Source: Anaerolineae bacterium (GTDB taxonomy: Bacteria > Chloroflexota > Anaerolineae > Aggregatilineales > Aggregatilineaceae). Taken from it: 64,000 nucleotides of DNA. How positions within the stretch are numbered: the first letter of the stretch is position 1; each line of letters begins with the position of its first letter. The notes beneath the pieces were generated by a model. The model did not search any database, had not been told where the DNA came from, and worked only from the letters and a program-made list of their open reading frames with translations. The translations under genes and the position numbers were made by a program. The DNA lies in NCBI GenBank assembly GCA_018432315.1, contig JAHDLB010000003.1, positions 1-64,000 of the forward strand. Direction: 5' to 3'. This document shows, piece after piece, positions 41,317-51,388 of this stretch.

Positions 41317-41772
41317 TCAGCCGCCGTTCGTGCTCGATGCCGCCGGCTGGTAGTGGTAGTCGCCGCTTTTGCCGCCGCTCTTGGCGATCAGCCGCGTGTA
41401 GGCGATCTCCATGTCGCGCGTGTGCGGTTTGAGCATATCGTACAGGGTGAGCGCGGTGATGCTGGCGGCGGTCATGGCCTCCATCTCGACGCCGGTCGGC
41501 GCGAAGGTCTTGACCAGGGCCTGCAGGCGCACGCCTTCCGGCTCGAAGTAGTACGCGATCTGCACGTGCGTGAGCGGCAGCGGGTGGCAGAACGGGATCA
41601 GGTCCCAGGTTTTCTTGGCGGCGAGGATGCCCGCCGCCCGCGCGATCTCCAGCGCGTCGCCTTTCTCCAGCCCGCGCTCGCGCAGCAGCGTCTGGATCTC
41701 GGCGGGCATGGTGATCAGCGTCTCGGCGATGGCCTGGCGCTGGGTGGCTGATTTGGCGCTGACGTCTTTCAT
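41317..41772 (-). CDS. moaC: Cyclic pyranopterin monophosphate synthase
   Basis: A 151-residue enzyme converting the MoaA product (3',8-cyclo-GTP) to cyclic pyranopterin monophosphate, early in molybdenum cofactor synthesis. Conserved motifs are KKTWDLIPFCHPLPLTHV, APTGVEMEAMTAAS and LYDMLKPHTRDMEI, with the catalytic Lys in AKSGGKSG. Length is typical. The ATG overlaps the moaE stop by one base (TGATG). Last gene of moaA-D-E-C. Confidence 0.96.
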   Translation of the reverse strand: MKDVSAKSATQRQAIAETLITMPAEIQTLLRERGLEKGDALEIARAAGILAAKKTWDLIPFCHPLPLTHVQIAYYFEPEGVRLQALVKTFAPTGVEMEAMTAASITALTLYDMLKPHTRDMEIAYTRLIAKSGGKSGDYHYQPAASSTNGG

Positions 41773-42206
41773 CAGGACTCCTTTCGGGTGAGGGGCACGC
41801 CGTCCAGGTACCGGCTCTCGCCGGTGACGTAGTGTTCTTCCTTCCAGATCGGCGCGCGCTGCTTGATCGCGTCGATGGCATAGCGCGAGGCGTCGTAGGC
41901 GGCGGCGCGGTGGGCGGCGCGCACGACGATGATCACGCTCGGCTCGCCCAGCTTCAGCGTCCCGACCCGGTGCTGAATCCGGCAGCGACGCACGTCGAAG
42001 CGGTCCAGCGTCTCGGCCTCGATCGCGCGCAGCACTTTCTCGGCCATGGAGACGTGCACTTCGTAGGTCATGCCATCGACCGGCTGGCCTTCGTTCTCGT
42101 TGCGCACCGTGCCGAAGAACACGACCAGCGCGCCGCAGGCGGGATCTTCGGTTTCGGCCAGCAGCGGCGCCAGTTCCAGCGGGGTATCCAGAATCCAGCG
42201 GCCCAT
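41772..42206 (-). CDS. moaE: Molybdopterin synthase large subunit
   Basis: A 144-residue catalytic subunit that, with MoaD thiocarboxylate, inserts the dithiolene sulfurs. GALVVFFGTVRNENEG, YEVHVSMAEKVLRAI and APIWKEEHYVTGESRYLDG (catalytic Lys pair) are characteristic. The ATG at 42206 has GGAGG 5 bases upstream, overlapping the end of moaD; a GTG at 42218 is less likely. It overlaps moaC by one base. Confidence 0.95.
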   Translation of the reverse strand: MGRWILDTPLELAPLLAETEDPACGALVVFFGTVRNENEGQPVDGMTYEVHVSMAEKVLRAIEAETLDRFDVRRCRIQHRVGTLKLGEPSVIIVVRAAHRAAAYDASRYAIDAIKQRAPIWKEEHYVTGESRYLDGVPLTRKES

Positions 42207-42207
42207 C

Positions 42208-42456
42208 CTAACCTCCACTCACCGGGGGCAGCAGCGCGGCCCGGTCGCCGTCGCGCAGGCGATAGCCCGGATCGACGATCTCGTCGCCGACCACGAACGC
42301 CACGGTGGGCAGGCGCTCGCCCAGCGCCGGATAGCGCGCCGCGAGCCAGTCGCCCAGCTCTTGCACGGTCAGCGAGTCGCCGTCCAGGTCCAGCGTCTGG
42401 GTCTTGGCGCCGACGTCCTGCTTGAGGCCGCCGTAGAAGGTGACGTGCAGTTTCAT
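42208..42456 (-). CDS. moaD: Molybdopterin synthase sulfur-carrier subunit
   Basis: An 82-residue ubiquitin-fold protein ending in ALLPPVSGG. The C-terminal Gly-Gly is adenylated and thiocarboxylated to carry sulfur for MoaE. The start at 42456 (MKLHVTFYGGLKQDVG) gives the expected MoaD length. It lies 13 bases after moaA and 1 base before moaE. No MoeB-type activator is in the window. Confidence 0.93.
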   Translation of the reverse strand: MKLHVTFYGGLKQDVGAKTQTLDLDGDSLTVQELGDWLAARYPALGERLPTVAFVVGDEIVDPGYRLRDGDRAALLPPVSGG

Positions 42457-42469
42457 GCCCGGCCCTCGC

Positions 42470-43501
42470 TCATCCCCCGATGTGATACATTTCGACTTTT
42501 TGCTGGCGCGGCTCGGTGAGCGACGACCGGATCTCGGAGTAGCGATCCGTCCGGCGGTGCCACACGCCGCGCACGATCTGCTCCAGTTCACCGTCGGACG
42601 CCCCGGCGCGCAGCGGGGCGCGCAGGTCGGTGCCCGCCGCGGCGAACAGGCAGGTGAACAGGCTGCCCTCCGGCGAGAGCCGCAGCCGCGTGCACCCGCC
42701 ACAGAAGGGCTGCGTCACCGACGCGATCACGCCGATCTCGCCGGACCCGTCGCGGAAGCGGAAGCGCCGGGCGACCTCGCCGGGGTAGTTGGGCGGGACC
42801 GGCTCCAGCGGCAGGACGGCGTCGATCCGGCTGACGATCTCGCGGGCCGGGACGACGTGCTCCATCGCCCAGCCGTTGCGCGTGCCGACGTCCATGAACT
42901 CGATGAAGCGCACGATGTAGCCGTTGTCTTTGCCGAAGCGGGCCAGATCGACCAGGGTGTGATCGTTGACGCCGCGCTGCACGACGGCGTTGATCTTGAT
43001 CGGCGCGAAGCCGGCAGCGCGAGCCGCGTCGATGCCCGCCAGCACCTGTTCGAGCTGGGCGCGGTCGCCGTTCATCTGGCGGAACACGCCCTCGTCCAGG
43101 CTGTCGAGGCTGATCGTCACGCGGCCCAGTCCCGCCGCGCGCAGCGCCCCGGCCTGCTGCGGCAGCAGGAAGCCGTTGGTCGTCAGGGCGACGTCGTCGA
43201 TGCCATCCACGGCGGCGATCTGCTCGACCAGCCGCTCGATCTGCTGGCGGACCAGCGGCTCGCCGCCGGTCAGGCGCACCTTGTGCACGCCCAGCCGCGC
43301 GAACAACCGCACCAGCCGGGCGATCTCCTCGAAGGTGAGCAGCTCGCTGCGGGGCAGGAACTGGTAGCGCTCGCCGAAGATCTCGGCGGGCATGCAGTAC
43401 GTGCAGCGGAAATTGCAGCGATCGGTGACCGAGATGCGCAGATCGCGCAGGGGCCGGTTCAAGGCGTCGGCGAGCGTTGGTGTCGGGCGGTGATTATCCA
43501 A
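42470..43501 (-). CDS. moaA: GTP 3',8-cyclase (radical SAM)
   Basis: About 343 residues. The radical-SAM cluster is in DRCNFRCTYCMPAE (CxxxCxxC), and a second 4Fe-4S cluster that binds GTP is ligated by FCGGCTRLRL and a downstream FTCLF Cys. KVRLTGGEPLVR and RVTISLDSL follow. Although MoaA usually ends in Gly-Gly, here HIGG is present as expected. TTG at 43501 is chosen because a TATAAT box at 43557-43562 would put the transcript start at about 43550; a GTG at 43552 would be almost leaderless. First gene of the moa operon. Confidence 0.93.
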   Translation of the reverse strand: MDNHRPTPTLADALNRPLRDLRISVTDRCNFRCTYCMPAEIFGERYQFLPRSELLTFEEIARLVRLFARLGVHKVRLTGGEPLVRQQIERLVEQIAAVDGIDDVALTTNGFLLPQQAGALRAAGLGRVTISLDSLDEGVFRQMNGDRAQLEQVLAGIDAARAAGFAPIKINAVVQRGVNDHTLVDLARFGKDNGYIVRFIEFMDVGTRNGWAMEHVVPAREIVSRIDAVLPLEPVPPNYPGEVARRFRFRDGSGEIGVIASVTQPFCGGCTRLRLSPEGSLFTCLFAAAGTDLRAPLRAGASDGELEQIVRGVWHRRTDRYSEIRSSLTEPRQQKVEMYHIGG

Positions 43502-43556
43502 AACGGCACAGTCCAGGCAAATAAAAGTGATGACGGTGAGAGTTATTGTCACGCAG

Positions 43557-43597: not shown

Positions 43598-45211
43598 TCA
43601 CGCGCCGCCCCGGCGCTCGCGGATCAGGGCCCGGTAGTCGCGCAGCAGGTCCCGGTCCTGGTCGGCGCCCCAGGCCATCGGCGTGCGGCTGAGATGGTGC
43701 CCGCCGTTCTGCGTGCTGGTCGCCTGGCTCAGCCCGACCTCGGTGCCGTAGAGAATGACCGGCGGGCCGGGCTGCTGCATCTGGACGGCGGCAGCGCGGA
43801 GCAGCGCCCGCTTGTCGCCCCCGGCGATGAACAGGAAGCGGTCCATGTCGTGGTTGTCGAGGAAGACCGGCATCACGAAATCGCCCGCGAAGTACGCCGT
43901 GTGGCGTGCGGCGAAGATCGCGAACCGCTCTTCGGACCACGCCCGCCAGCCGTAGGTCTTGCGGATGGCTTCGCTGATGTGGAAATCGAGGCAGCCATCG
44001 AGGCGGCCCTGGTAGGCGCGGATCACGTCGGGCGCGTCGACCACTTCGCCGAAGCAGAAGCTGTCCGGATTCTCCTGCTTGCACGCCGTCCGGAAATCGC
44101 TCCAGAAGTCCGGGCCGGGGCCGTTGGCGTAGTCGAGCCGGTAGCCGTCGACGTGAAACTCGCGCAGCCAGCGGCGGGCGATGCCGATCATCCAGTCGTG
44201 GGCGCCGGGGTCCGCCAAGTTGACCTGGGGCATGGCGGGATTGCCGAAGAAGGTCCGGTAGCCGGCCTCGGAGTCGTCGAAGGTGAACCAGGCGCGGTAG
44301 GGGCTGGCGGGATCGGCCAGCGCGGCCTGGAAGACCGGGTGCTGGTCCGAGATGTGGTTGCAGACGAGGTCGAGCAGCACGCGGATGCCGCGCGCGTGGG
44401 CTGCTTCGACCACGGCGTGCAGCGCCTCGTCACCGCCCAGGCGCGGCTCGACGCGCTCGAAGTCGGTCACGTCGTAGCCGTGGTGCGACGGGCTGGCCCA
44501 GGTGGGGCTGAGCCAGATGCAGGTCGCGCCCAGCTCGGCGATGTAGTCCATCTTGTCGCGCACGCCCCACAGCGTCCCACCGCAGAAGCCCATCAGGTCG
44601 GTTGTTTGCAGCCAGTCGCGGCCCTCGCCGGGGTAGAAGCGGTCGACGAAGACGTGATAGATCACGGCCTGGCGCGCCCAGGCAGGCGGCGCGAAGGTGT
44701 CCACGTGATAGGCGAAGGTTCGGCCCGCCGGGTCGCCGCGCTTGAGATCGGGCGCGACGGGCTGCTGGCGAAAGTAGGCGCCGGCGGCGGCTTCGGCGGT
44801 GGCGGTGACGTCCGGCCAATCGGCGAACGATTCCGGCCCGTCACCGGCCCACGCGCCGATCCGGTAGCGGACGGTGACGCCGTCGGGCTGGGCGGGCAGG
44901 GTGCCCTGCCAGCGCGTCACGTAGCCCCAGGCCAGCGTGTCCCACGCCACGTCACACTGTTCCAGCCGGATCGCGTGCCCGTTGGTCGCCACGCCGCGCG
45001 CGCCCGCGGGCGGGCTGCCGTCCGTGGTGTAATAGCAGGCGACGTGCTCCGCCAGCAGGTCGGCGCCGGTCTGCACGGTGATCGTCACCGGCTGGCCGGG
45101 CAGGGGATCGCGCGGGTGCAGCATGTGCTGGTGCTGGACGCCGAGCCGCCGCGCGCGGTGGTGCACGGTCTTGAGTTCGTCAGTTGCCAGGGTGCCGAAA
45201 GCGAAATCCAT
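43598..45211 (-). CDS. GH13 alpha-amylase-family glycosidase (neopullulanase/cyclomaltodextrinase-like)
   Basis: A 537-residue cytoplasmic enzyme (no signal peptide) acting on alpha-glucans. Residues 1-165 form a beta-rich N-terminal domain, as in cyclomaltodextrinase relatives. The (beta/alpha)8 barrel follows with the four classical regions: LLDLVCNH, GYRLDYANG (nucleophile Asp), FCFGEVVDA (acid/base Glu) and PVFLDNHDMDR. The chain stops about 40 residues after ILYGTEVGLSQ, so most of the usual C-terminal beta-domain is missing. Single gene, ending 96 bases before moaA. Confidence 0.88.
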   Translation of the reverse strand: MDFAFGTLATDELKTVHHRARRLGVQHQHMLHPRDPLPGQPVTITVQTGADLLAEHVACYYTTDGSPPAGARGVATNGHAIRLEQCDVAWDTLAWGYVTRWQGTLPAQPDGVTVRYRIGAWAGDGPESFADWPDVTATAEAAAGAYFRQQPVAPDLKRGDPAGRTFAYHVDTFAPPAWARQAVIYHVFVDRFYPGEGRDWLQTTDLMGFCGGTLWGVRDKMDYIAELGATCIWLSPTWASPSHHGYDVTDFERVEPRLGGDEALHAVVEAAHARGIRVLLDLVCNHISDQHPVFQAALADPASPYRAWFTFDDSEAGYRTFFGNPAMPQVNLADPGAHDWMIGIARRWLREFHVDGYRLDYANGPGPDFWSDFRTACKQENPDSFCFGEVVDAPDVIRAYQGRLDGCLDFHISEAIRKTYGWRAWSEERFAIFAARHTAYFAGDFVMPVFLDNHDMDRFLFIAGGDKRALLRAAAVQMQQPGPPVILYGTEVGLSQATSTQNGGHHLSRTPMAWGADQDRDLLRDYRALIRERRGGA

Positions 45212-45376
45212 GCCAGAACCTCCTCCGGGGGAGTGGTGTCGATTAGGGCGAACATTGTAGCCCTGAATGGGGAAGCGCTCAATAAGAGCGCGGCGATGCG
45301 GAAAGGTCGTTTTCGGGCGATTTGGTGACTTGTGCCAACACGCATCTTGTCCTATAATGACGATTGTTCAAGTTGC

Positions 45377-45387
45377 ATTGTAACAAT
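45377..45387. promoter_or_regulatory. Palindrome ATTGTAACAAT upstream of the cytochrome genes
   Basis: A perfect 11-bp palindrome in the 281-base gap before the first cytochrome gene. Possible operator; no family assigned. Confidence 0.35.
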
Positions 45388-45402
45388 AGCGATTGAAATA
45401 AC

Positions 45403-45416
45403 GTGACAGATGTCAC
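45403..45416. promoter_or_regulatory. CRP/FNR-like palindrome upstream of the cytochrome genes
   Basis: GTGACA-GA-TGTCAC is a perfect inverted repeat with the GTGA/TCAC half-sites of CRP/FNR-family regulators, about 80 bases before the first cytochrome ATG. Regulator unknown. Confidence 0.45.
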
Positions 45417-45493
45417 TGGCCCGTTTACAATTTAACAAATAAGATTGAACGGGATTCACACGATTGCGGTTGTTTATCAAAGATAGTTGGTGT

Positions 45494-46231
45494 ATGTCCA
45501 GGTTCCTTTGTAGCTGCGTTTTTCTGGCCGGCGTGATCATGCTGGCGTTCGCCGTGGGGCTGTTCCTGAACGGGCAGGCCGGCGGCGATCGATCGATCCT
45601 GGAAGCGCGGCTCGCCGTGCAGGACGCGGTAGCGAGCCTGGAACCGTGTGAAACGTGCCATTCGGGCGCGGCGCAAAGCGGCACCCTGGTCGCGTTCCGG
45701 CCCCTGGTGCAGGCCAGCCGCCCGGCGGTCGACGCGCCGTCGCTGGCCGCGTCGATGCCCCAGGTGGATTACCTGCGCGTGGAGCTGGACGCCCGGCTGG
45801 CGGAAGTCGGCCAGCGCGTCCTGGATGCGCCCGCCAGCGACGACCCGGCGTACCGGGCCGCGATCGATCACTATCTCGCGGTGTACCACGCCGCGCAGTC
45901 GGACCTGGACGGGGCGCAGGTTGCCAGCGCGCTGCACGCGCTCGACGGCGTGACGGCGCTGCTGGCCGAGTCCGTGAATCGGGCCAGCCCGGTCCGGCTG
46001 GAACGCGCGCCCGAACCGGCTCCGCGCTGCCTGGAAGTCGCGGCGCAGTCTGCCCCGCCGCCATTGGTGCGGGTAGCTGCCAGCGCCCAGGGCATGATCC
46101 TCGACCAGACGCCGGCCATCGAGCCGGCGAACCTGAGCGCACGCGTGTACGTGCCGTCGCGCGTGGTCGTCGTGTCGCACCGCTGCGATCCGCCTGCGGG
46201 TGCGATCTTTGATTCGGTTAGTCATGCATGA
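45494..46231 (+). CDS. Membrane-anchored monohaem c-type cytochrome-like protein
   Basis: A 245-residue protein with an N-terminal membrane segment (about residues 5-28) and one CETCH haem site shortly after it. The remaining 180 residues are helical, then Pro/Val-rich, and show no second haem site or recognised domain. The ATG at 45494 is chosen over a TTG at 45464; both have weak ribosome sites. It is followed by an intrinsic terminator and then by the nonahaem cytochrome gene. A small electron-transfer or haem-protein partner is inferred. Confidence 0.7.
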   Translation: MSRFLCSCVFLAGVIMLAFAVGLFLNGQAGGDRSILEARLAVQDAVASLEPCETCHSGAAQSGTLVAFRPLVQASRPAVDAPSLAASMPQVDYLRVELDARLAEVGQRVLDAPASDDPAYRAAIDHYLAVYHAAQSDLDGAQVASALHALDGVTALLAESVNRASPVRLERAPEPAPRCLEVAAQSAPPPLVRVAASAQGMILDQTPAIEPANLSARVYVPSRVVVVSHRCDPPAGAIFDSVSHA

Positions 46232-46267
46232 GAGATTGCCATCGGAACCGGTGCGCAATCTCTTTTT
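46231..46267 (+). terminator. Intrinsic terminator between the first and second cytochrome genes
   Basis: AGAGATTGC (46231-46239) pairs with GCAATCTCT (46255-46263) and runs into a T5 tract, starting at the stop codon of the monohaem gene and ending 32 bases before the nonahaem ATG. It could end the first transcript or act as a partial read-through site. Confidence 0.8.
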
Positions 46268-46298
46268 GCATTCATTTTCGAGAAGGAGAGGGGCATTT

Positions 46299-48155
46299 AT
46301 GGTAAGAAAAGTGCTTTTGCTAGTCGGGCTGATCCTGCTGCTGATGGCCTTTGGCGTGTACGGGGCCAGCGGCCAGGACGGCGAAACGGACGAACCATTC
46401 TCTGAGGTGCCGATCACCACGTCCGCTACCGAAGCGGTGGGTGTCGGTTCCTACGTGGCCGGGGAAGCCTACGCGGTGGCTGCCGGTGAAGACCCGGCGG
46501 AACAGCCGGTGCAGGCGTTGATCCTCCCGTATGGCATCTATCCGAACATGCACGTCGAGGTGATCGAGGACTTCCAGCAGCCCGAGCCGGCGGTCGAAGG
46601 CTTCACGTTCGACTGGAGCCTGAGCGCGCCGGAAGGCTCGTCCGCCGAGTTGATCGAGGGCACGGTCGCGATCTTCATGGCCGACGTCGAGGGGCAGTAC
46701 GAGCTGACCCTGACGGCCACCGATGCCGACGGCAACAGCGGCGAGACAAGCTGGGTGGTGACGGCCTCGACCTATATCGGCGTGGGCGCGATGGACGGCC
46801 TGCAGGCGGCGTTCCCCGCGTGCAGCATGTGCCACGCAGACCAGGCTGATGACTGGGCCGCCACGGCGCACGCCACCATGTTCACCCGCGCCATCAACGG
46901 CGAAGTGAGCGATCACTACGGCCCCGACTGCGTGAGCTGCCACGTCACCGGCTTCAACAACCGGCCCGAGGCGGACAACGGCGGGTTCGACGACCTGGCG
47001 CGCGAAGCGGGCTGGACCCTCCCCGAGGAACTGACCGCGGGCAACTGGGAAGCGATGGTGGCCGAGTTCCCCGAAGTCGCCAAGCTGGCGAACATCCAGT
47101 GCGAAAGCTGCCACGGTCCGGGCGCGGCGCACGCCAGTAACGGCGGCGATCCGTCGATGATCGGCGTCGGCCTGGACTACGGGACCTGCGCGCAGTGCCA
47201 TGCCGAAGACCCGTACCACGTCTTCCCGCAGCAGTGGGAAGTGAGCGCCCACGCGGACAAGAACGCCCAGGCGTTCTGGTACCCGATCGGTGAGGACCGC
47301 CTGGCGTGTGTCGCGTGCCACAGCGGCGCCGGGTACATCGACGCGGCCAACGGCGTGCCGATGGAAGAGCGGCGCAGCGGCTACCAGCCGATCACCTGCG
47401 CCGTCTGCCACGACCCGCACCACGCGGACAACCCGAACCAACTGCGCATCTTCGACACGGTGACGCTGCCCAACGGTACCGAGGTGGCCGAAGCGGGCCC
47501 GGCGGCGACGTGCATGACCTGCCACAACTCGCGGGTCGATGCGGTAGCCGTGGTCGAGGGCGAGCGCTTCAGCACGCCGCACTACTCGGTGGCCGCGGAA
47601 CTGATCAACAACACCGGCGGGTACACCTGGGGCGAGACGGTGCCGGCCACGCTGCACGGCCAGATCATCCAGGACTCGTGCGTGAGCTGCCACATGGCCG
47701 ACACGCCGGGCATGGATGACGATGGTAACCCGCTGCCCGGTCACAACACGGTCGGCCAGCACACGTTCGCGATGGTCAGCCCGGTGGATGGCGCCGAGAA
47801 CGTCGCCACCTGCCAGGGGTGCCACAGCGGCGTGGAGAGCTTCGCGTTTGACGCGGCGGGCGACTATGACGGCGACGGCGCGGTCGAAACCAACCAGGAC
47901 GAGGTCGCCGGCCTGCTCGAGGTCTTGCAGGGCGCACTCGAGGAGAGCGGCGTGGCCGTGCTCGATCACCACCCGTACTTCGAGCTGCCGGAAGACGCGA
48001 GCGTCGACGTGAAGGGCGCGGTCTTCAACTTCAAGATGATCCGCGACGACCAGGGCTCGGTGGTGCATAACCTGAAATACTCGGTCGGGCTGCTCCAGCT
48101 CAGCTATGCCAAGCTGACGGGCGAGCCGGTGCCGGGTGCGACGCTGGTCGAGTAG
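46299..48155 (+). CDS. Secreted nonahaem c-type cytochrome
   Basis: A 618-residue exported protein. The signal peptide (MVRKVLLLVGLILLLMAF...) ends near residue 27. Residues 60-160 form a beta-rich region resembling a PKD/Ig-like fold (FDWSLSAPEGSSAEL, YELTLTATDADGNSG). Nine CxxCH sites lie between residues 175 and 509: CSMCH, CVSCH, CESCH, CAQCH, CVACH, CAVCH, CMTCH, CVSCH and CQGCH, with many extra His available as distal ligands. The last 110 residues are haem-free. AGGAG precedes the ATG. The haem spacing recalls octahaem/decahaem cytochromes of respiratory chains; the electron acceptor is unknown. Confidence 0.9.
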   Translation: MVRKVLLLVGLILLLMAFGVYGASGQDGETDEPFSEVPITTSATEAVGVGSYVAGEAYAVAAGEDPAEQPVQALILPYGIYPNMHVEVIEDFQQPEPAVEGFTFDWSLSAPEGSSAELIEGTVAIFMADVEGQYELTLTATDADGNSGETSWVVTASTYIGVGAMDGLQAAFPACSMCHADQADDWAATAHATMFTRAINGEVSDHYGPDCVSCHVTGFNNRPEADNGGFDDLAREAGWTLPEELTAGNWEAMVAEFPEVAKLANIQCESCHGPGAAHASNGGDPSMIGVGLDYGTCAQCHAEDPYHVFPQQWEVSAHADKNAQAFWYPIGEDRLACVACHSGAGYIDAANGVPMEERRSGYQPITCAVCHDPHHADNPNQLRIFDTVTLPNGTEVAEAGPAATCMTCHNSRVDAVAVVEGERFSTPHYSVAAELINNTGGYTWGETVPATLHGQIIQDSCVSCHMADTPGMDDDGNPLPGHNTVGQHTFAMVSPVDGAENVATCQGCHSGVESFAFDAAGDYDGDGAVETNQDEVAGLLEVLQGALEESGVAVLDHHPYFELPEDASVDVKGAVFNFKMIRDDQGSVVHNLKYSVGLLQLSYAKLTGEPVPGATLVE

Positions 48156-48200
48156 TCTCGTGTCGGGCTATCGCTGCGGCGCGGCCTGACGTTCTGTGAT

Positions 48201-48234
48201 GGCGCCCATTGGTCGACCCTGACCCGTGGGCGCC
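48201..48234 (+). terminator. Hairpin between the nonahaem and undecahaem genes
   Basis: GGCGCCCA (48201-48208) pairs with TGGGCGCC (48227-48234). There is no real U tract (GCATTATC), so read-through into the next gene is likely. Confidence 0.4.
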
Positions 48235-48255
48235 GCATTATCCCCTGGAGGCAGG

Positions 48256-50529
48256 ATGAGTCGTATCTACAGGTTTTTCTTTCCGCCGCCAGGCACGCCG
48301 GCCTGGAGCCGGGTCTTGCGGCTGGCGGTTCTGCTGGCGATTCCCCTGGTGATCGTGCTGCTGCTCCCCGCGGCGTGGGAATACAGCAACTCGCCGGAGT
48401 TTTGCGGCACCACCTGTCACACGATGCCGCCGGAATACAACACGTACCTGGTTTCGCCCCACGCGCGCGTGCTGTGTGTGGACTGTCACATCGGGCGCGG
48501 CTCGTTTTACGATCAGTTCATCCGCAAGTCGGGACATTCCAAACTGTTGTGGGCGACGATCACCGAGAATTACGAATACCCGATCCAGGTGAGCAGCATG
48601 CGCCCCGCGCGCGACACGTGCGAGCTGTGCCACTACCCGGAGAAATTCTCCGACGACAGCCTGCGCGTGCTGAACCGGTACCGCGACAACGAAACCAACG
48701 ATCCGTATGACGTGTACCTGCTGATGCACACCGGCGGAGGCACCCGGCGCGAGGGCCTGGGCTACGGCATTCACTGGCACGTCGAGAACACGGTGGAATA
48801 CATCGCTACCGACCGGCTGGAGCAAAACATCCCCTGGGTGCGCGTCACGGATGTGGACGGGACGACGACCGAGTACGTGTCCACGGAATCCCCGCTCGAT
48901 CCGGATGAGCTGGGCGCGTACGAGGTGCTCGAAATGGACTGCATCACCTGCCACAACCGCATCTCGCACCTGCTCGACACGCCGGAGCACCTGGTCGACA
49001 GCGCCCTCAATCGGGGCGATATGCCGGACGACATCCCCTACGTTCGCGCCCGGTCGGTCGAGCTGCTGGCTGAGCGGTACGAGTCGTTTGACGAGGCGCG
49101 CGAGTCGATCGCCGGGCTGGCGGAATACTACCGCGACTCCTATCCCGACTACTACGAGGCCAACACGGCCAAAATCGACGGGGCGGTCGACCTGTTGGTG
49201 AACCTGTGGGAAGACAATACCTTCCCCGAGCAAGAGCTGGACTGGAAGACGCATCCCAACAACATCGGCCACCGCGACTGGCCGGGGTGCTTCCGCTGCC
49301 ACGACGGCAAGCACTTCAACGAGGCGGACGAGGCGATCCGGCTGGAATGCAACCTGTGCCATTCCATCCCGCAGATCGTGCTGCCGAACGAGATCGAGCC
49401 GACGCTGCCCCTGGCGACCGGCATCGAACCGTCCTCGCACCGCGAAACGACGTGGATCAGCCGCCACCACAACGAGTTCGACGCTACCTGCGAGAACTGC
49501 CACACGACCGCCAATCCGGGCGGCACCACCGATACCAGCTTCTGCTCGAACAGCGGCTGCCACGGCACGGACTGGCGCTATGCCGGGTTCGACGCGCCGA
49601 CCCTGGCGCTGGAACTGGGCATCGATCAGCAGCCGGAGGAAGCCCCGCCGCTGCTCGAAGGTGTGGAGGCCGAGGGAATCACCTTCCAGGAGCTTCAGCC
49701 GGTCTTCGAGCAAGCCTGCGGGCAGTGTCACGGCGCAGCAGCAGCCACGAAGGGGCTGAACGTGACCGAGTACGACGCCCTGCTGGCGGGGAGCGACGAC
49801 GGCCCGGTGATCGAGCCGGGCGCGCCGGAGGACAGCCTGATCCTCGACGTGCTGGCCGAGGGGCACTTCGGCGAGCTGAACGACGAGCAGATGGCGCTGC
49901 TCGAAGCGTGGATCGCGGCGGGCGCGCCGGAAGGCGAAGCGGCATCCGAACCGGAAGCGACCGAAGCCGGTGACGTGACGTACGCCGACATCCAGCCCGC
50001 GCTGGCGGAAGCGTGCGGGCAGTGTCACGGCGACGCGGCGACGAAGGGCCTGAAGGTGACCGAGTACGACGCCCTGCTGGCCGGGGGCGACGACGGCCCG
50101 GTGATCGAGCCGGGCGCGCCGGAGGACAGCCTGATCCTCGACGTGCTGGCCGAGGGGCATTTCGGCGAGCTGACTGAGGAGCAGATGGCGCTGCTCGAAG
50201 CGTGGATCGCGGCGGGCGCGCCGGAAGGCGAAGCGGCATCCGAGCCGGAAGCGACCGAAGCCGGTGACGTGACGTACGCCGACATCCAGCCCGCGCTGGA
50301 GGAAGCGTGCGGGCAGTGTCACGGCGATGCGGCGACGAAGGGGCTGAAGGTGACCGAGTACGACACGCTGCTGGCCGGGGGCGACGACGGCCCGGTGATC
50401 GAGCCGGGCGCGCCGGAGGACAGCCTGATCCTCGACGTGCTGGCCGAGGGGCACTTCGGCGAGCTGAACGACGAGCAGATGGCGCTGCTTGAAGCGTGGA
50501 TCGCGGCGGGCGCGCCGGAAGGCGAGTAA
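48256..50529 (+). CDS. NapC/NrfH-like membrane-anchored undecahaem cytochrome with three tandem haem domains
   Basis: A 757-residue protein. One transmembrane anchor (about residues 18-40) precedes an NrfH/NapC-like start, FCGTTCHTMPPEY, with a CX3CH haem site (Cys50). Then follow CVDCH, CELCH, CITCH, CFRCH, CNLCH, CENCH and CSNSGCH (CX4CH, Cys430). Residues 470-757 are three near-identical modules of 98-99 residues, each with CGQCH and an EPGAPEDSLILDVLAEGHFG core like planctomycete-type cytochrome C domains. That makes 11 potential haems, two with unusual spacing. GGAGG is 5 bases from the ATG. It probably draws electrons from the quinol pool (inference) and passes them outward, perhaps to the nonahaem protein. 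Confidence 0.9.
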   Translation: MSRIYRFFFPPPGTPAWSRVLRLAVLLAIPLVIVLLLPAAWEYSNSPEFCGTTCHTMPPEYNTYLVSPHARVLCVDCHIGRGSFYDQFIRKSGHSKLLWATITENYEYPIQVSSMRPARDTCELCHYPEKFSDDSLRVLNRYRDNETNDPYDVYLLMHTGGGTRREGLGYGIHWHVENTVEYIATDRLEQNIPWVRVTDVDGTTTEYVSTESPLDPDELGAYEVLEMDCITCHNRISHLLDTPEHLVDSALNRGDMPDDIPYVRARSVELLAERYESFDEARESIAGLAEYYRDSYPDYYEANTAKIDGAVDLLVNLWEDNTFPEQELDWKTHPNNIGHRDWPGCFRCHDGKHFNEADEAIRLECNLCHSIPQIVLPNEIEPTLPLATGIEPSSHRETTWISRHHNEFDATCENCHTTANPGGTTDTSFCSNSGCHGTDWRYAGFDAPTLALELGIDQQPEEAPPLLEGVEAEGITFQELQPVFEQACGQCHGAAAATKGLNVTEYDALLAGSDDGPVIEPGAPEDSLILDVLAEGHFGELNDEQMALLEAWIAAGAPEGEAASEPEATEAGDVTYADIQPALAEACGQCHGDAATKGLKVTEYDALLAGGDDGPVIEPGAPEDSLILDVLAEGHFGELTEEQMALLEAWIAAGAPEGEAASEPEATEAGDVTYADIQPALEEACGQCHGDAATKGLKVTEYDTLLAGGDDGPVIEPGAPEDSLILDVLAEGHFGELNDEQMALLEAWIAAGAPEGE
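49681..50526 (+). repeat. Three tandem coding repeats of 294-297 bases
   Basis: The codons for CGQCH fall at 49717, 50014 and 50308, giving periods of 297 and 294 bases. Copies 2 and 3 differ at only a few positions; copy 1 has one extra Ala codon and more changes. This indicates recent internal duplication inside the cytochrome gene. Confidence 0.92.
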
Positions 50530-50557
50530 TCCCGCCGGACTGAATTCGCAGTTCACC

Positions 50558-50599
50558 ATCCCCGCCGGGCACCTCCCCCTGGCGGGGATTTTTGTTTTT
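50558..50599 (+). terminator. Strong intrinsic terminator of the cytochrome gene
   Basis: ATCCCCGCC (50558-50566) pairs with GGCGGGGAT (50581-50589), followed by TTTTTGTTTTT. It is 29 bases past the undecahaem stop. Confidence 0.9.
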
Positions 50600-50662
50600 G
50601 GCGCGGCGGGTTAGAATGGCTGGCGTGACCTGCGTGCCCGCAACCGAGGAGCGTCCCATACT

Positions 50663-51388
50663 ATGAGCCTCACGCTGGTAATCATCCTGGCAGCCCTGAT
50701 GGTCGGCCTGATCAAAGGGGGATTGGGGCCGGTGCCGGGGGCGCTGCTGGTGCCGCTGCTGAGCACGACTATGCGCGTGTCGGAAGCGATCGCGCTCACG
50801 CTGCCGCTGTTGATCGTGGGCGACCTGTTCGCGCTGCCGGTGTACTGGCGCCAGTGGGACGGGCGCATGGTGCGGCTGATGCTGCCCGCGGCGGTGGGCG
50901 GGATCGTGATGGGGCTGGCGCTGCTCGCCACGCTGCCGGATGACACGCTGCGCCGGGTGCTGGGCGGTTTCACGCTGCTGGCGGCGGGCTACAAGCTCGC
51001 CAGCGACTCGATCGCCACGCTCAGCTATAAGCCGCGCGACTGGCACGGCTGGCTGGCCGGGTGGGGCTCCGGCTTCGGATCGGCGCTGGCGAACGCGGGC
51101 GCGCCGCCGATCACCGCGTACCTGCTGCTGCAAAAACTGACGCCGACCGTCTTCATCGCGACGACGGTGCTCTTCTTCTTCATCGTGAACCTGATCAAGC
51201 TGCCCGCGTTTCTGGCGACGAACGTCGTCAGCACCGGCCAACTGCTGAGCATCGTTTGGGCGCTGCCGCTGATCCCGATCGGTGTGTGGGCGGGGCGGCG
51301 CGTGGTCCTGTGGCTGAATCCGCGCCTCTTCGAGCGGCTGATGCTGGTCCTGCTGGTGTGGGCGGGCGTGACGCTGCTGCTGAGCTGA
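50663..51388 (+). CDS. TauE/SafE-family membrane transporter
   Basis: A 241-residue integral membrane protein with about seven or eight hydrophobic segments. LIKGGLGPVPGALLVPLLS and GWGSGFGSALANAGAPPITA are the repeated Gly-rich motifs of the TauE/SafE (sulfite/organosulfonate exporter-like) family. The substrate cannot be told from sequence; its place next to the cytochromes makes a sulfur oxyanion possible, but this is inference. GAGGAG lies about 11 bases before the ATG. It converges with the ABC exporter genes. Confidence 0.9.
   Translation: MSLTLVIILAALMVGLIKGGLGPVPGALLVPLLSTTMRVSEAIALTLPLLIVGDLFALPVYWRQWDGRMVRLMLPAAVGGIVMGLALLATLPDDTLRRVLGGFTLLAAGYKLASDSIATLSYKPRDWHGWLAGWGSGFGSALANAGAPPITAYLLLQKLTPTVFIATTVLFFFIVNLIKLPAFLATNVVSTGQLLSIVWALPLIPIGVWAGRRVVLWLNPRLFERLMLVLLVWAGVTLLLS

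Follow-up and report, generated by a model that had tools for sequence, protein, structure and literature searches.

A stretch of 64,000 nucleotides (nt) from an Anaerolineae bacterium (bases 1-64000 of contig C24, JAHDLB010000003.1, hereafter the window; the genome amounts to 5.69 Mb and is 99.4% complete) contains three open reading frames (ORFs) on the same strand, g1, g2 and g3, which, according to the ORF list and the translations, hold 21 potential haems (1 + 9 + 11). We propose, with moderate confidence, that this locus represents an electron-export operon controlled by its own leader, in which g1, acting as an arrest peptide and attenuator, would gate a conduit formed by g2 and g3. The parts of this arrangement, their conservation and spacing, and a covarying hairpin between g1 and g2 can be read from the sequences themselves. 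The haem-rich cluster had already been described in the initial annotation and stands: the ORFs and motifs are present, and their density is far above chance, with the CXXCH pattern occurring 23 times in the DNA of the window (19 times inside g1-g3) as compared to a mean of 3.3 in 100 shuffles, and with residue-shuffled versions of g1, g2 and g3 (2000 each) reaching a maximum of 1, 1 and 2 CXXCH, respectively. The core features are:

45494-46231, plus strand: g1, a leader-type ORF of 245 residues (ATG at 45494) with a hydrophobic N-terminus, one CXXCH and a C-terminal RxxPP.
45647-45661, plus strand: the CXXCH (CETCH) of g1, present in 16/16 homologues.
46181-46195, plus strand: the RCDPP of g1, at the site of the RRGPP arrest-type motif, which is found in 15/16 homologues.
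46231-46267, plus strand: an attenuator-like hairpin resembling an intrinsic terminator, in which a T-run stands behind a perfect stem of 9 bp (arms 46231-46239 and 46255-46263).
46299-48155, plus strand: g2 (ATG at 46299), a nonahaem protein with a hydrophobic N-terminus, a PKD/Ig-like domain and a haem region of the OcwA/NrfA superfamily (9 CXXCH, 46821-47825).
48256-50529, plus strand: g3 (ATG at 48256), a membrane-anchored quinol dehydrogenase of the NapC/NrfH type with a core of CX3CH, 6 CXXCH and CX4CH, followed by C-terminal haem repeats.

The initial annotation considered g1 to be a part of the conduit, a view that we do not find supported: its homologues have the anatomy of a leader, with CXXCH, RRGPP and a hairpin with a T-run. 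The g1 of the window has no family match in Pfam or NCBIfam, and a scan of 10 g1 members yielded three weak Pfam matches (E <= 0.1), DUF2946 not being among them. The 16 homologues considered here, 11 from the family of the window and the other five from a single genus belonging to a second family (f8), show a mean pairwise identity of 28% (minimum 12%). Little is conserved in a 10-homologue alignment besides the CXXCH and the C-terminal HRRGPP, and, of the 12 columns of the g1 alignment that are conserved in at least 15 of the 16 rows, eight make up CXXCH and RRGPP; the histidine after CXXC is kept in all 16 homologues, and the window is the sole exception to RRGPP. The two motifs are separated by 160-198 residues, the N-terminus is hydrophobic (judged by eye from the alignment), and a multihaem ORF lies downstream. 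Specifically, wherever the contig extends far enough for it to be seen, the gene 3' of the leader encodes a multihaem cytochrome, namely either g2 or a decahaem protein which, at four loci, is 26-28% identical to g2 over 352-360 residues. The leader stays while the gene downstream of it changes. Ribosome arrest by the sequences RAPP and RGPP has been shown in more than one context, the effect of RGPP being the strongest and refractory to EF-P; proteomes avoid both sequences, whose occurrences are concentrated close to the C-termini of small proteins, exported or membrane-bound, that are encoded upstream of diverse genes (PMC12992588).

A hairpin with a T-run is found 3' of the motif site in 16/16 homologues examined, including L212 and the five f8 genomes. 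The conserved element of its 5' arm lies 48.9 +/- 3.3 nt (44-55) past the motif, whereas the distance of the same element from the stop codon of g1 (-84.8 +/- 84.7 nt) is not fixed, the stop codon being located inside or beyond the hairpin in 11/16 homologues. The folding of the hairpin beats all 200 shuffles in 10/10 sequences tested, with z from -4.75 to -7.8; for the hairpin of the window, z is -6.1, and a stock terminator scan missed it because its 15-nt loop is too long for such a scan. The covariation score of the stem, 0.359 as compared to 0.118-0.239 for slid pairings, was reached by none of 500 shuffles, and the changes on both sides of 8/16 pairs (11 rows) were equalled by one shuffle of 500; the number of pair types is ordinary (206/500 shuffles), and counts of this kind can be inflated by relatedness. 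Among 115 loci, 90 mechanically called ORFs carry RAPP or RGPP within 70 residues of their C-terminus; in 12 of them, a hairpin with a T-run lies 20-90 nt further on, and all 12 are g1 homologues, from 9 distinct loci (L093, L094 and L095 duplicate L078, L079 and L081). Conversely, when multihaem ORFs are taken as the starting point, a hairpin with a T-run is found upstream of 7/8 leader-bearing and 42/277 leaderless ones, and the lone leader-bearing gene scored without it fits that of the window, whose first in-frame ATG (46224) precedes the hairpin. From the end of the T-run to the next ATG, there are 31-80 nt in 11 loci of the first family; in the window, 31 nt separate it from the ATG of g2, too few for a promoter behind the hairpin, and a consensus promoter scan of the window found nothing between the T-run and g2. 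Most simply, g2 would be transcribed through the hairpin.

The same data bear on the unlikely alternative that g1 is an ordinary monohaem membrane cytochrome of the chain, that the hairpin is its own terminator, and that RRGPP is a structural element. In its favour are the invariant CXXCH and the hydrophobic N-terminus; the 42 leaderless ORFs show that hairpins with T-runs precede multihaem genes in other contexts as well, and the RCDPP of the window shows that RGPP is dispensable. However, two thirds of the best-conserved columns fall within the two motifs, the hairpin keeps its distance to the motif and not to the stop codon, which is often located within or past it, and the T-run is separated from the start of g2 by those 31 nt only; furthermore, bacterial proteomes show a strong exclusion of motifs like RAPP (PMC12992588).

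Turning to the conduit, the single g2 sequence has a sole match in the PDB at E <= 0.01, the nonahaem cytochrome OcwA (6I5B, 5.6e-7), and a 9-row profile retrieves 6I5B in three stretches (4.2e-11), cytochrome c554 (2.3e-4) and a PKD domain (0.009). OcwA and cytochrome c554 are the only haem proteins found by this profile at E <= 0.01, MtrC/MtrF being absent at that level; a membership of g2 in the MtrC/MtrF group, suggested by a Pfam match (domain II/IV, 59 bits with a cut-off of 30), was dropped since multihaem models cross-match. In 9 orthologues of g2, 18 histidines are kept in at least seven rows, namely those of the nine CXXCH and nine others. In a 20-row alignment of g2-type proteins, eight of the non-CXXCH histidines are invariant and the ninth (206 from the ATG) is kept in 17/20, being lost in L072 and L073, along with the CXXCH of haem 2, and in L193, where haem 2 is kept. 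On the simplest reading, nine, or at least eight, of the haems of g2 would be bis-histidine ones, and the nine candidate distal histidines, unlike the two open haems of OcwA, point to conduction rather than catalysis. The g2 orthologue of L075 (307-2289) carries an apparent lipobox (LLAAC, by eye) near its N-terminus and may be a surface lipoprotein.

The histidine pattern argues against g2 being a nitrite- or hydroxylamine-type reductase with g3 as its NrfH, which we deem very improbable. This possibility is raised by the resemblance of the C-terminal half of the g2 model to OcwA, MccA and NrfA, by the ability of OcwA to reduce nitrite, albeit slowly, and to act on hydroxylamine (PMC6703420), and by the NrfH-like domain of g3. 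However, CXXCK was not found in g2, and the conserved histidines leave no obvious open site, in contrast to OcwA with its two open haems (PMC6703420). A whole-genome search for the NrfA family (PF02335) gave no match, with the E. coli control being positive.

The g3 protein, with 9 CXXCH, one CX3CH and one CX4CH, is the only match of NapC/NirT (PF03264) in the genome (36 bits; cut-off 24.1) and also matches the NCBIfam model of NrfH (7.8e-15), with a score of 55 bits that is below the cut-off of 134; a 15-row profile retrieves NrfH (3.8e-8) and FoxE (4.5e-7) from the PDB. Its CX3CH (CGTTCH, residues 60-65) is located beside the membrane helix, and the alignment contains one hydrophobic stretch, as judged by eye. 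Among the best 80 of at least 586 homologues, CX3CH is present in 79/80 and CX4CH in 80/80, so that both are probably real haem sites; 79 of these 80 bear titles assignable to Chloroflexota, the top two being metagenome-assembled genomes (MAGs) of Aggregatilineales, and the remaining one is L092 (see below). The C-terminus of g3 matches PSCyt1 in three stretches (69 bits; cut-off 22), which correspond to the following feature:

49741-50525, plus strand: three tandem repeats spaced by 294 nt, 95-96% identical in DNA, each encoding a single monohaem domain that resembles FoxE/PSCyt1 (CXXCH at 49717, 50014 and 50308).

The near identity of these repeats suggests a recent duplication or exchange, and the relatives contain from one to four copies of the C-terminal haem domain (three in L067, four in L070, two in L077, one in L082). 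The position of the RMP of FoxE is occupied by GHF in the g3 domains; its nearly invariant histidine would be a haem ligand. Some distant homologues of g3 elsewhere in the class are much richer in CXXCH, with 17 in L193 (15693-18206) and 14 in L196 (13805-16036); no ImcH-like protein match was obtained in plasmid records.

FoxE is an Fe(II) oxidase, and its match to the C-terminal domain of g3 suggests that the g2/g3 pair could work inward, feeding the quinone pool with electrons from Fe(II) or an electrode. Also compatible with such a direction are the anodic and cathodic currents of Ardenticatena maritima, a member of Chloroflexota that exchanges electrons with electrodes (PMC5808234). We nevertheless consider inward flow improbable: the homologues of ImcH, the quinol oxidase that g3 resembles, are so far described only from Fe(III)-reducing bacteria (PMC6295460), and what FoxE matches in g3 is a monohaem domain for which PSCyt1 scores as well. 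For the Anaerolineales, electron export has been suggested from genomes (PMC7399161). The route from quinol to the exterior that was envisaged in the initial annotation is supported for g3, with its NrfH/NapC-like features, and for g2, with its OcwA and c554 matches and its constant company of g3 in the class sample (see below), but not for g1.

The occurrence of g2 and g3 was followed in a sample of 396 genomes of the class (thresholds E <= 1e-100 for g2-type and E <= 1e-80 for g3-type) and, separately, in 61 nearer relatives (g2 orthologues at E < 1e-90); several of the 80 g3 loci belong to genomes also counted among the latter. In the class sample, g2-type proteins were found in 12 genomes and g3-type proteins in 116, and all 12 genomes with g2 carry g3, with a probability of 2.6e-7 under the assumption of independent genomes, an assumption that does not hold; when the three members of the query alignment are set aside, the co-occurrence is 9/9 (1.1e-5). 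The two genes share a contig, at most about 8.5 kb apart, in 9/12 of these genomes, so that the general lack of linkage in relatives, which would have refuted the initial annotation, is not observed. The nearer relatives qualify this linkage: g2 orthologues were found in 12 of the 61, and seven of these genomes have g3 (on the same contig in 6/7). The g2 orthologues of L072 (7008-8891) and L073 (7628-9475), which have no CXXCH for haem 2, come from two genomes without detected g3, G002 and G007.

In a survey of 40 g3 homologues with at least 6 kb of sequence on both sides, another multihaem gene was found within 8 kb of g3 in 38; a nonahaem protein is encoded near g3 in 23/40, a cytochrome b561 in 23/40, a decahaem protein in 20/40, g2 in 2/40 and g1 in 1/40. 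A set of nonahaem protein, cytochrome b561 and decahaem protein adjoins g3 in Anaerolineae (L083 4027-8091 and many of L103-L169), and a protein with 7 haems, whose N-terminal part has a match of the cytochrome b6 type (L106 13218-15323), sometimes belongs to the set that adjoins g3.

Several observations weigh against our proposal. First, the g1 of the window has RCDPP, without the arginine and glycine of the motif, in the place of the RAPP or RGPP near the C-terminus by which arrest-peptide leaders are recognized. The homologues with RRGPP appear to be candidate arrest-peptide leaders and the g1 of the window their degenerate relative; with its motif decayed, the regulatory claim rests on the relatives and, for the window, is a claim of descent. 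The hairpin and CXXCH of the window are intact, DPP is an EF-P-dependent pause, and the species may either no longer possess the gate or rely on a weaker pause. Second, the leader is narrowly distributed, being found in 11/18 genomes of the family of the window (a 12th, weak match was rejected) and in 5/10 further decahaem loci, all from one genus. In three genomes of the window's family with no strong leader match (G001, G003 and G014), neither motif nor hairpin was found upstream of the decahaem gene, and the same holds for five decahaem loci of three other families. A class-wide leader search returned 3/396 genomes, which is a lower bound because G024, G030 and G035 carry the leader and were missed; weak matches to the g1 profile (L213-L217), which covered the N-terminal part only and had no RAPP or RGPP, were rejected. 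Third, the leaders of L212 and f8 were found after the hypothesis had been formed, via a profile in which the columns of the motifs are included or via scanning for RAPP/RGPP or for CXXCH (in f8, one via the profile search and the others by inspecting the region upstream of the decahaem gene in ten genomes), so that, for these loci, only the hairpins and the joint occurrence of both motifs constitute independent evidence. Fourth, given its presence before 42 leaderless multihaem ORFs, the hairpin taken by itself is little proof, and the g2 transcript may alternatively start from a promoter that overlaps with it.

As to the conduit, g3 was not detected in 5 of the 12 nearer genomes with g2 (G002, G007, G011, G012 and G043), of which G007 is 98% complete in five contigs, so that g2 can do without g3; G002 and G007 have both leader and g2. 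The assignment of g3 to the ImcH type follows the published description of ImcH and is to be taken as probable. The AlphaFold2 models of g2 are poor: mean pLDDT (predicted local distance difference test) was 41 with 9 sequences, a model that was dropped, and 56 with 20 sequences, where mainly the C-terminal third is confident. A Foldseek search of the g2 model against the PDB gave no match at E <= 0.001. In VIA-align, the weak model scores higher with OcwA (Z 9.8; 154 residues, root-mean-square deviation 4.1) than with MccA (7.7) and NrfA (6.9), but Z below about 13 can be due to chance in helical models, and the Z of 9.8 is support, not proof, of the likeness to OcwA.

With these reservations, the operation of the leader-controlled operon can be envisaged as follows. 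Transcription would start upstream of g1, at a promoter-like site overlapping a palindrome, and the g1 chain would be exported during synthesis, with the membrane anchor first and the CXXCH segment next; being 160-198 residues ahead of the motif, the CXXCH should already have passed the membrane by the time the ribosome arrives at RRGPP. The homologues of g1 would then arrest ribosomes, with the stall at RRGPP occurring short of the stem, so that the hairpin forms and transcription stops before g2. The stall might be relieved either by the force that export exerts on the chain or at the CXXCH, for instance through the attachment of haem (the copper or thiol state are candidates as well); the released ribosome would then cover or melt the stem, and transcription would proceed into the cytochrome genes. 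In the conduit, electrons from menaquinol would enter g3 at the membrane via its NrfH-like domain and travel over the eight haems of its core and the FoxE-like domains of its C-terminus to g2, and g2, as a protein of the OcwA type, would carry them to or beyond the cell surface.

That arrest leads to termination and release to expression is inferred here from geometry only. The front edge of a stalled ribosome is located about 15 nt past the P-site codon; with the 5' arm some 49 nt past the first codon of the motif, a ribosome stalled at the motif would end some 20 nt short of the hairpin and could not open it. This geometry speaks against the opposite sign of control, namely that arrest switches the operon on, which we regard as doubtful, even though it has precedents in CruR and CutF, for which arrest was proposed to favour downstream expression (PMC9426467, PMC9973294).

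As for the signal that would relieve the arrest, the histidine after CXXC, invariant in 16/16, and the multihaem nature of the target favour haem attachment or export. In its most specific form, which we advance tentatively and with low confidence, g1 would be the founder of a class of nascent-chain sensors of cytochrome c maturation, such that the attachment of haem at the exported CXXCH, or its failure, is relayed to the ribosome stalled at RGPP, and attenuation then settles whether the costly multihaem genes for electron export are expressed. It may also be, although this is less likely than not, that the arrest leader senses copper, the redox state of thiols or Sec export instead: CruR, which combines CXXC with RAPP, and CutF, with CXXXC and a proline-rich C-terminus, sense copper (PMC9426467, PMC9973294), and the Sec/YidC leaders monitor protein localization (PMC10987492). 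Neither copper nor thiols would readily account for the invariant histidine and for the downstream gene being multihaem wherever visible; the sensing of export is compatible with both.

The putative operon is bounded by two further features:

45403-45431, plus strand: a promoter-like site, GTGACA-17-TACAAT, upstream of g1; its first hexamer lies within the palindrome GTGACAGATGTCAC (45403-45416).
50558-50589, plus strand: a terminator-like hairpin 3' of g3, marking the end of the putative operon.

The palindrome, which resembles a site of a Crp/Fnr-type regulator, is the only GTGAC-N4-GTCAC in the window; the exact pattern is found upstream of g1 in 3/11 loci (the window, L064 and L081) and a looser one in two more (L212 and L073). 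Both the palindrome with the promoter-like site and the hairpin after g3, as well as the g1-g2 hairpin and the 294-nt repeats of g3, are absent from the initial annotation. An Rfam scan of 45300-50700 gave a sole match, ar14 (E 0.29), which is under its threshold and was rejected. The divergent neighbours of the operon (41317-43552, minus strand) are molybdenum cofactor-like genes (MoaC, MoaE, MoaD and MoaA-like, by eye), with an amylase-like gene beside them (43598-45211, by eye). Elsewhere in the genome, on contigs 35, 63 and 21, a partial list of multihaem ORFs includes a divergent pair with 8 and 10 haems (L065), ORFs with 5 (L176) and 8 haems (L178), and an adjacent pair with 7 and 8 haems (L177). 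A locus filed under a Planctomycetaceae MAG (L092, JAAYDI010000104.1) encodes g3 and g2 that are 90% and 92% identical, respectively, to those of the window, and probably comes from a mis-binned close relative of its species.

In our judgement, cytochrome-based electron export is costly in haem and iron, and it is little understood how cells match the synthesis of such cytochromes to their capacity for export and haem attachment. If the proposal is true, the union of haem-attachment motif, arrest motif and terminator in one leader would solve this problem compactly, control by arrest peptides would extend to respiratory electron transfer, and small "monohaem cytochromes" encoded upstream of multihaem genes may prove to be regulators. 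The conduit, in turn, would be a variant for cells without an outer membrane, consisting of an ImcH-type dehydrogenase that adds haem domains by tandem duplication and of an OcwA-type carrier.

Compared with known arrest-peptide systems, the g1 homologues are similar to ApdA, ApdP, ApcA and the upstream ORFs of Streptomyces (PMC12992588, PMC10987492) in that a small exported or membrane ORF with a C-terminal RGPP directly precedes the regulated gene, and differ from the RAPP/RGPP leaders by the conserved CXXCH, by the terminator-like hairpin at a near-fixed distance and by the multihaem genes downstream. The words "cytochrome" and "heme" do not occur in the main text of PMC12992588, and the literature searched for arrest or stalling leaders with cytochromes yielded no description of a g1-like leader on cytochrome genes. 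Precedents for a nascent chain that combines a cysteine motif with a proline-rich C-terminus and controls the gene behind it are CruR and CutF (PMC9426467, PMC9973294). With CruR of Bordetella pertussis (DUF2946), the g1 type shares the combination of a cysteine motif with a RAPP-type motif in a leader that precedes an operon, and the proposed action on transcription termination; CruR, however, is described as Rho-dependent, with 45 residues between the motifs, with copper as the signal and with arrest keeping the operon on (PMC9426467), in contrast to the CXXCH, the 160-198 residues between motifs and the hairpin with T-run of the g1 type. Similarly to what is proposed for g1, CutF of Rhodobacter capsulatus is an exported nascent sensor with its cysteine motif outside the membrane, a proline-rich C-terminus and a stem-loop downstream (PMC9973294), but in the g1 type (11 loci) the stem leads into a T-run, with 31-80 nt left to the start codon that follows. 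The sign proposed here, arrest being off, is opposite to that proposed for both CruR and CutF.

As regards the conduit, ImcH of Geobacter is a quinol oxidase in which a CX3CH adjoins the membrane helix and several CX2CH come after it; the protein has three membrane helices, with one in Anaerolinea thermophila, named among the homologues, and in Intrasporangium calvum, and its published table includes one homologue from Chloroflexi (PMC6295460). The g3 protein resembles this description in its NapC/NirT-like part, its CX3CH by the membrane helix, its several CX2CH and its multihaem neighbours (PMC6295460), and differs from the Geobacter protein in having seemingly one membrane helix, a CX4CH and the tandem FoxE/PSCyt1-like domains; the number of CX2CH is 9 in the window and up to 17 in L193, compared to 5-9 published for ImcH (PMC6295460). 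OcwA of Thermincola potens is a nonahaem cytochrome of the cell surface of a Gram-positive bacterium, with haems 1-4 arranged like those of c554 and haems 5-9 like those of NrfA, haems 2 and 5 being open, with His-His motifs, and haem 9 being His-Met (PMC6703420). Like OcwA, g2 has nine haems, is exported and belongs to a bacterium that lacks an outer membrane, and the two are similar along the haem region; unlike OcwA, it has an extra PKD/Ig-like N-terminal domain and probably nine bis-histidine haems instead of two open ones and one His-Met. The nonahaem protein and cytochrome b561 encoded beside g3 in the relatives recall, by architecture only, a split version of CbcL, in which a nonahaem part is joined to cytochrome b (PMC6295460); in the genome of the window, a search for such an arrangement with a single query lacking a positive control gave no match. 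The initial annotation placed the arrangement outside the well-described systems, which is half right: the ImcH homologue of Anaerolinea thermophila (PMC6295460) and OcwA (PMC6703420) have been published, and the conduit is a new combination of known parts.

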